In this document: in pieces, positions 657 through 2,133 of the stretch
How the letters are laid out: every line of letters begins with the position of its first letter
How positions within the stretch are numbered: position 1 is the first letter of the stretch
Assembly: GCA_024655865.1 (NCBI GenBank)
Contig: JANLFM010000044.1
Coordinates: forward strand, 1-7,357
Origin: Caldisericota bacterium
GTDB taxonomy: Bacteria > Caldisericota > JANLFM01
Length of the DNA stretch: 7,357 nt
Direction: 5' to 3'
Notes under the pieces: model-generated
Told to the model about the DNA's origin: nothing
The model's input: only the letters and a program-made list of their open reading frames with translations
Database searches by the model: none
Position numbers and translations under genes: made by a program

Positions 657-959
657 TTATTTGGTTGAATTCTTTTGCTCTGAAAGTTCGGCCATGCGCT
701 TTGTTGTTCCCCGCACAGCGGGGAACAACAAAGCGAAAAAGAGAGCCGTTGTTATCCACAAGGACCATTCTGGAATAAAGTTGGACTGTCTCAACGCATT
801 TGGTAAAAATAGGAGAAGGCCAGCCACAGCCCATACTCCCAGGTAAAATCTGATGGCGAACTTTCTCTAAGCAGGGATCTCAGCTCTGCGGAAATAGATA
901 TAAGTGCCAAGGATTGCCCCCAGTATTCCTAAAATTGCCCCAATCCACCCTGCGATCAT
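657..959 (-). pseudogene. Small three-helix membrane protein gene interrupted by an in-frame amber codon
   Basis: From ATG (959-957) the minus strand encodes 30 residues, MIAGWIGAILGILG... to ...RRAEIPA, then a TAG at 869-867. The same frame stays open for 69 more codons to a TAA at 659-657. The rest is clearly protein-like: RKFAIRFYLGVWAVAGLLL, then PEWSLWITTALFFALLFPAV and a polar tail ending KNSTK. The whole frame would be 100 codons with three hydrophobic helices (about 2-23, 33-54, 64-80). The first is a small-residue G-xx-G helix. From memory this layout matches a family of roughly 90-100-residue membrane proteins with a polar GPRERAF-like segment after helix 1; the TAG would align with its Glu, so GAG to TAG is the simplest explanation. 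AAAGGG lies 6 nt before the ATG. No good internal start follows the TAG. Pseudogene, amber readthrough or sequencing error are all possible. Confidence 0.72.
697..735. repeat. Perfect 18-bp inverted repeat with a 3-nt loop
   Basis: Positions 697-714 and 718-735 are exact reverse complements around ACA. The stem would be very stable and includes a run of five GC pairs next to the loop. It lies within the 3' part of the minus-strand membrane-protein frame (657-959), encoding the ALLFPAVRGTTKR segment without breaking the frame. The core looks like the palindromic half of a type I-E CRISPR repeat, but it occurs once only and there is no array. Confidence 0.7.
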
Positions 960-1019: not shown

Positions 1020-1913
1020 CTACCTCAGCATGTTCACGGGGCTCGCTTTCCTCTGCGCCCGGGCCAGGTCATTCTGAGTCAAGCTCAAGTACCTCTGGGT
1101 GACAGCATAGGAGGTGTGCCCTAAAAGGCGCCTTACGGTCTCTAAATCGGCGCCGTTCTGGAGATAGGAAGTAGCTGAGGTGTGGCGGAAAAGGTAGGGG
1201 TAAAGCCTGCCCACCTGACTTCTCTCTTTGAGGAGGCGCATGATGGAGCGCAGGGCGCAGTAAGTTAAAGGACGGCCGTCTGAGGTAGTGAAGAGCGCAT
1301 CCTCCATAGGTGGGGCTTTCCTCTTCTTCAGGTAGGCCTGAATGGCCCTCTTGGTAACCTGAGAGATGGGGAGAAATCTCTCCCCGGTCTTACCGCGCAC
1401 CCTGATGTAATCTCCCTGAAAATCCTTCAAGGTCAGGCTTAGGAGTTCTCCGGGCCTCAGGGCAACATCAATTAGAAGGAGCAGAATGGCCTGGTTTCTC
1501 TGGGAGTTCCTCTCTAATTTTTTGACGATGTCTAAGAGTTCCTGAAGGGCAGAGGGAGTCAAGGTGGGAAGGAGCTTCCTAGGGATTTTTAGGTAAGGAA
1601 TGCCTTCCAAGGGATTGGACTTCAGGAAGCCCTGGGACTTCGCCCACCTGAAGAAAACTTTTAAGTGCCGGAGATGAATGTTTATGCTCTCCGGACTATT
1701 TGAGGGCCTCAGCCAGGAAATGTAGGAAAAGGGGTCAAATTCTTTAAGCCCCTTACCATCCAAGAAGGTTAGGAATTTCATCAGCTTTTCTCGGTAAATA
1801 CCTACGGTGCGCGGGGAAAGGCCTTTCAAGTCGCAGTACCTTAAAAAGAGGGAAACTAAAGAGCCAACGGATGTTTGAAAAGGGCCCTCCCTTTTGGTGC
1901 CTGCAGGTCGCAT
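1020..1913 (-). CDS. Tyrosine recombinase/integrase, XerC/XerD-like
   Basis: This 297-residue protein should catalyse site-specific DNA strand exchange through a 3'-phosphotyrosine intermediate. An N-terminal SAM-like, core-binding domain (about 14-95; YCDLKGLSPRTVGIYREKL) precedes the catalytic domain. Recognisable active-site residues are Arg153 (ALRPGELLSL), Lys175 (VRGKTGER), Arg243 (LFRHTSAT), His266 (LLGHTS) and the nucleophile Tyr275 (QRYLSLT). The His normally found at the first position of H-x-x-R is Tyr240. Length is typical of the Xer family. ATG at 1913 is the first possible start, because an in-frame TGA lies three codons upstream; AGAGGAG supplies the ribosome-binding site. The gene begins 14 nt after a truncated tRNA-Arg on the same strand, pointing to an integrative-element integrase rather than a chromosomal dimer-resolution XerC/D. 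It ends in TAG. Confidence 0.93.
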   Translation of the reverse strand: MRPAGTKREGPFQTSVGSLVSLFLRYCDLKGLSPRTVGIYREKLMKFLTFLDGKGLKEFDPFSYISWLRPSNSPESINIHLRHLKVFFRWAKSQGFLKSNPLEGIPYLKIPRKLLPTLTPSALQELLDIVKKLERNSQRNQAILLLLIDVALRPGELLSLTLKDFQGDYIRVRGKTGERFLPISQVTKRAIQAYLKKRKAPPMEDALFTTSDGRPLTYCALRSIMRLLKERSQVGRLYPYLFRHTSATSYLQNGADLETVRRLLGHTSYAVTQRYLSLTQNDLARAQRKASPVNMLR

Positions 1914-1927
1914 TAAAAGTCAACTCC

Positions 1928-1988
1928 TCTCGAACTCCCAACCATCGGATTAGAAGTCCGATGCTCTGTCCTCTTGAGCTATGGGCCC
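1928..1988 (-). pseudogene. tRNA-Arg(TCT), 3' part missing
   Basis: Read on the minus strand from 1988 the sequence fits a tRNA: 5' acceptor strand GGGCCCA, TA, D-stem GCTC/GAGC with a GG-containing loop, anticodon stem TCGGA/TCCGA around CTTCTAA (anticodon TCT, arginine), a 5-nt variable loop, 5' T-stem GGGAG and T-loop TTCGAGA. The next bases should be CTCCC then TGGGCCC, but they are GGAGTTGAC, which leads into the integrase. The 3' T-stem and 3' acceptor strands are absent, so the gene as written cannot give a normal tRNA. T-loop breakpoints are typical of integrase crossover sites in tRNA genes. Confidence 0.82.
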
Positions 1989-2133
1989 AGACCTGCCTTA
2001 ATATATTAGCAGAAAAGACCCAGGAAAATCAGGTCTTCGATTGGAGTTATGTGCCTGGATGTTAATGCTAATTCGCGAAAACCGTTTGTGTCCTATTTAT
2101 ACTGGGTTACTCATTCTTAAATAAGGAGCAAAT
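1989..2133. other. Intergenic region between the tRNA remnant and the ATC-hydrolase-like gene
   Basis: This 145-nt region lies between divergent units. It holds a 6-bp hairpin (AAGACC 2015-2020 with GGTCTT 2032-2037), an imperfect inverted copy (2036-2048) of the tRNA/integrase junction sequence at 1922-1934, and a weak -10-like TATACT at 2098-2103 on the plus strand. No tRNA 3' fragment that could complete the broken tRNA is present. Confidence 0.35.
2003..2011 (-). promoter_or_regulatory. Possible extended -10 element before the truncated tRNA
   Basis: TGC-TAATAT reads from 2011 to 2003 on the minus strand, 14 nt before the mature tRNA 5' end at 1988. I see no convincing -35 hexamer. If active, transcription would cross the tRNA remnant straight into the integrase gene, since no terminator separates them. 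Confidence 0.33.

Follow-up and report, generated by a model that had tools for sequence, protein, structure and literature searches.

The window analyzed here is a 7,357-nucleotide stretch of DNA that forms the whole of one contig from a metagenome-assembled genome (1.82 Mb, 63 contigs, 96% complete). On its minus strand, a truncated tRNA gene is followed by a tyrosine integrase gene and, directly behind the latter, by a small frame that resembles a membrane-protein gene and is interrupted by a TAG codon. The features are as follows.

657-959, minus strand: reading frame for a small membrane protein with three helices; 100 codons and a TAA, broken at codon 31 (translation, profile, hydropathy, AlphaFold2)
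867-869, minus strand: in-frame TAG, codon 31; the second copy has CAG (Gln) here, and every intact distant relative found has Glu (translation, alignments)
870-959, minus strand: part before the stop, a 30-residue peptide with one hydrophobic helix (translation, hydropathy, match to the family profile)
657-827, minus strand: 56-codon in-frame ORF from a GTG that covers helix 3 and part of helix 2; a restart here is possible (ORF list, Shine-Dalgarno pairing)
697-735: perfect inverted repeat, arms of 18 bp and loop of 3 nt, over codons 75-88; missing from the second copy (repeat scan, copy comparison)
979-987, give or take a base or two, minus strand: TGATATAAT, an extended -10-like element 5' of the frame, kept in the second copy (sequence comparison)
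1020-1913, minus strand: intact tyrosine integrase, 297 aa, ending in TAG; one of four copies of full length in this genome (ORF list, family match)
1932-1990, minus strand: displaced 5' fragment of tRNA-Arg(TCT), cut within the T loop at TTCGA; marks the end of the element on the integrase side (ARAGORN)

Translation from 959 to 657 gives MIAGWIGAILGILGAILGTYIYFRRAEIPA, a stop, and then RKFAIRFYLGVWAVAGLLLFLPNALRQSNFIPEWSLWITTALFFALLFPAVRGTTKRMAELSEQKNSTK up to the terminal TAA. The frame is therefore open save for the TAG at 869-867, as an earlier note on this DNA had read it. In shuffles at the frame's base composition, the chance of at most one stop in 100 codons is 0.03, and openness alone is only mild evidence for a gene. 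We judge the frame to be a real gene because homology on both sides of the TAG, rather than openness, decides the matter. Hydrophobic segments lie at residues 1-19, 34-52 and 61-79 (mean hydropathy 1.98, 2.01 and 1.57), and an AlphaFold2 model of moderate confidence (mean pLDDT 75, pTM 0.46) places helices at 2-25, 29-59 and 64-99. Hydropathy and model thus both predict three transmembrane helices. No match passed the curated cut-offs of Pfam or NCBIfam, or E <= 0.001 in PHROGs, and comparison with solved structures returned nothing meaningful for the membrane protein. The promoter-like element upstream of the frame is absent from the list produced by a sigma-70 scan.

Elsewhere in the window, the plus strand carries a lipoprotein-like ORF (147-521, 124 aa). 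Its matches are to PHROG families without a known function (phrog_13160, E 1.8e-17), with none in Pfam. Upstream of it, at 87-119, lies a perfect inverted repeat with arms of 16 bp and a 1-nt loop (ATAGAGGGGCCATTTT/AAAATGGCCCCTCTAT), possibly a transcription terminator.

A search of the organism's own genome revealed a second, diverged copy of the membrane-protein frame on another contig (C55). A profile made from these two sequences led to a relative in a distant genome (G166), and queries with that sequence led to relatives in three others (G325, G394 and G303). A contig search anchored on the window protein found none, and a search of the same kind anchored on the distant family found eight loci in named MAGs. 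These MAGs belong to Gammaproteobacteria, Gemmatimonadota, Planctomycetales, Blastocatellia, Kiritimatiellae, Verrucomicrobia and Deltaproteobacteria. None of the relatives listed so far has a stop at the site. The relatives, of approximately 95-105 codons and from several phyla, cover both sides of the TAG, so the spanning homologue on which the earlier note had made its reading depend does exist. One relative (G343) is itself interrupted.

When scored with a profile built without the window frame and without its second copy, the full frame reached 42.2 bits (E 2.6e-11 in a set of 6006 sequences), a value attained by none of 2000 block shuffles (maximum, 24.8). Against the family profile, the part before the stop scored 20.2 bits, which 0 of 2000 shuffles reached; the part after the stop scored 11.6 bits, which is low for this part alone and was reached by 18 of 2000. 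Identity between the window frame and the distant members is 26-32%. The other searched genomes of the same phylum contain no copy of the membrane gene, and therefore no close strain that could show a sense codon. Viral, phage and plasmid collections yielded no relatives of the protein, and viral contigs yielded no occurrence of the exact pattern around codon 31.

At codon 31, the intact distant members that were found all have Glu, within a P-x-E-R motif. The second copy has CAG (Gln) in an otherwise identical CCT GCT nAG AGA AAG. Hence the earlier proposal of a Glu codon at the site of the TAG is right for the distant family and wrong for the nearest copy, and the invariant Glu is missing from both copies in this genome. 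Homologues with a sense codon at this position that read on past it, as is required for a nonsense pseudogene, are thus available. The change is a single step from either codon: CAG to TAG is a C-to-T transition, and GAG to TAG is a G-to-T transversion. The proposal that one G-to-T change explains the TAG is therefore sound as to the single step, but C-to-T from CAG would be as simple a history or a simpler one. We prefer C-to-T because the nearest copy, in the same genome, has CAG, with the direction of change presumed from this comparison.

Beyond the TAG, the window frame and the second copy differ at 31% of first, 31% of second and 66% of third codon positions (Fisher p=2e-5). For the 30 codons before the stop, a small sample, the values are 30%, 40% and 33%, with no excess at third positions. 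The pattern past the TAG indicates that this part was translated and under protein-level selection until recently, so that the stop would be young relative to the divergence of the two copies. The copy on C55 lies directly behind an integrase that is 82% identical to that of the window, and it carries a lesion of its own, namely a 1-nt deletion that causes a -1 frameshift. Because each copy was damaged independently, the gene looks like dispensable cargo.

The earlier note also held that the frame has no other lesion, but this overlooked the 18-bp perfect inverted repeat at 697-735. A scan of 400 kb of the genome for perfect inverted repeats with short loops and arms of at least 14 yielded only eight, of which one lies within a long ORF. 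A template switch (quasi-palindrome correction) may have rewritten one arm of the repeat from the other, with the frame kept by luck or by selection, and the palindrome would then be a second departure of the frame from a normal gene. We also considered the palindrome as a terminator and rejected this assignment: no T-run follows on either strand, and a terminator scan did not list it.

The window integrase starts approximately 20-25 nt past the truncated tRNA-Arg(TCT). The genome holds four near-identical full-length integrases and one broken relative, each of which begins some 20-25 nt past a truncated tRNA; the tRNAs concerned are Arg-TCT, Lys-TTT, Arg-CCG, Ser-GCT and Thr-CGT. Related integrases were absent at E<=1e-40 from the other 60 genomes searched. 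The integrase/truncated tRNA sites, and two pairs of shared contig ends discussed below, are as follows.

Window 1913-1990, minus strand: integrase/truncated tRNA site
L009 2609-2690: integrase/truncated tRNA site
L020 3680-3744: integrase/truncated tRNA site
L021 3715-3803: integrase/truncated tRNA site
L022 1-74: integrase/truncated tRNA site
L023 3744-3798 and L022 1-55: shared 55-base ends
L009 about 2625-2680 and L061 1-55: shared 55-base ends

The tRNA-Lys(TTT), tRNA-Arg(CCG) and tRNA-Thr(CGT) sites are arranged like that of the window, and the tRNA-Ser(GCT) site is different. At four of the five sites, what has been displaced is the 5' portion of the tRNA. Therefore, judging from the layout, the tRNA promoter probably drives the integrase; ICEKp1 offers a demonstrated case of an integrase transcribed in this way (PMC13023037). 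An intact tRNA-Arg(CCG) lies on contig C62, and its upstream region is closely similar to that of the broken one on C6 (L020 3600-3735, L027 1498-1650), as would be expected if the island carried the tRNA promoter along with the 5' part. A candidate far end with an intact tRNA was seen only for this sister element (C6/C62); the window holds the end with the 5' fragment. We considered whether insertion would disrupt a tRNA lethally and rejected this idea. In addition to the intact tRNA-Arg(CCG) with its matching upstream region, there is a near-complete tRNA-Lys(TTT), at the start of contig C8, whose 3' half is undamaged. Given these intact or near-complete tRNAs, the layout fits known islands with 5' fragments.

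Several further observations concern these elements. The ends of contigs C23 and C42 have exactly 55 bases of tRNA sequence in common, as do those of C55 and C8. The assembly breaks at tRNA fragments, as expected for a short repeat or a mixed population. In the tRNA-Ser(GCT) element (C22, L021 3715-3790), it is the 3' part of the tRNA that adjoins the integrase, with the cut near the anticodon arm, and contig C15 (L059 1-75) opens with a fold-back of tRNA-Ser sequence. Within integrase residues 238-245, all four copies have Tyr (YLFRHT) in place of the His that is usual in the HxxR motif of tyrosine recombinases.

The interruption is quite probably a recent nonsense mutation in a dispensable accessory gene of a tRNA-integrated element. 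Conversion of sense codon 31 to TAG would have inactivated the membrane-protein gene directly behind the integrase of the tRNA-Arg-integrated element; translation would end after the 30-residue, one-helix peptide, and the three-helix protein would not be made. That one substitution accounts for the only stop in the frame amounts to minimal damage and speaks against loss, as do the lack of a third-position excess before the stop and the low score of the part after it. Recent loss is nonetheless favored because the second copy has a different lesion and because sister elements are decaying, with the integrase on C42 disrupted and that on C23 reduced to a remnant. The stop is most likely real and probably abolishes function. 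Were the TAG instead an error of sequencing or assembly, or the variant of a minority strain in this contig of metagenomic origin, the gene would be intact. A single base explains the lesion, the window is one short whole contig (C38), and the 63-contig assembly has N gaps and contig ends at repeats. However, isolated substitutions are uncommon in short-read consensus, and the different lesion in the second copy, together with the broken integrases of sister elements, argues for real decay. We consider an artifact of this type improbable.

The remaining explanations retain some product from beyond the stop. The earlier statement that the segment after the stop has no usable initiation codon was mistaken: a GTG at 827-825 is in frame, 40 nt past the TAG, with GGGAG 8 nt 5' of it, and its predicted anti-Shine-Dalgarno pairing is stronger than that of ATG959 (-6.8 versus -4.5 kcal/mol). 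A split gene that stops at the TAG and restarts at this GTG, so that the one-helix peptide and a second peptide assemble, is nevertheless decidedly unlikely. The GTG falls within predicted helix 2, and a product begun there would be without the conserved loop and the start of that helix (P..ERAF.IR), which makes a working two-piece protein unlikely, and no member of the set of relatives found is split in this way. Amber read-through or suppression, which would yield the full 100-residue protein, draws on the coding signature retained past the TAG and on the Gln at codon 31 of the second copy, Gln being a residue often inserted at UAG. The genome itself argues against it. Release factor 1 (RF1) is present and intact, and TAG is a normal stop, ending 53 of the 286 ORFs of at least 150 codons (19%) in 400 kb of the genome as well as the neighboring integrase gene. 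The TAG is not conserved, since the lesion in the second copy is a frameshift. Among the tRNAs named by ARAGORN around Rfam tRNA hits, none has a CUA anticodon. Matches to PF01409, the Pfam family that covers pyrrolysyl-tRNA synthetase, comprise a full-length protein of the phenylalanyl-tRNA synthetase type and, in a further long frame, a weak match over part of the family; no pylS-like gene was found. The search for pylS or an amber-suppressor tRNA that had been suggested earlier thus found neither, a result that is strong but not absolute in an assembly that is 96% complete and has some tRNA genes cut at contig ends. Of the expected signs of amber decoding (pylS or a CUA tRNA; TAG avoidance or RF1 loss), none was found. 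We therefore regard this explanation as very unlikely, although low-level read-through may occur. Because both copies are interrupted, one by the TAG and the other by a -1 shift, it is also conceivable that recoding holds the full protein at a low level and that the short peptide is the main product; this we rate as the least probable of all. In-frame stops under purifying selection have been reported in bacteria (PMC7918605). Thus, among the options previously raised (a young pseudogene, read-through or an error), recent loss is the best supported, and read-through is without support.

Little hinges on a recent nonsense mutation at this site: it would be a clean but ordinary case of fresh decay of mobile-element cargo. 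If the full-length protein were detected, the finding would matter more, given a genome without a visible means of decoding TAG. In either case, the comparison documents a widespread, unnamed family of three-helix membrane proteins.

We call this the ERAF/LLWIPYG family. Its members have approximately 100 residues, a glycine-rich helix 1, an NTxGPxERAFxIR loop and an LLWIPYG helix 3, and those found are G166, G325, G394/L070, L069 and L071-L076. The window frame resembles them in length, in its three helices, in the glycine spacing of helix 1, in P-x-(E)-R and in the Trp of helix 2. It differs in the stop at the invariant Glu, in extra residues between helices 2 and 3, and in a C-terminal part changed by the palindrome. 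On these alignments, the frame is best described as a diverged, broken relative of the family rather than as a typical member.

The element as a whole is comparable to Islander-type tRNA islands, with which it shares an integrase beside a truncated tRNA and, in this genome, an intact tRNA-Arg(CCG) whose upstream region matches that of the fragment. The window differs in that the far end of its own element is absent from the assembly. Islands with a displaced 5' tDNA fragment are a minority type, accounting for 159 of 3919 in Islander (PMC4383910). Like nonsense-mutation pseudogenes among mobile-element cargo, the membrane-protein gene has one stop substitution in a frame that is otherwise open, an integrase nearby, and other copies in the genome that are decaying.
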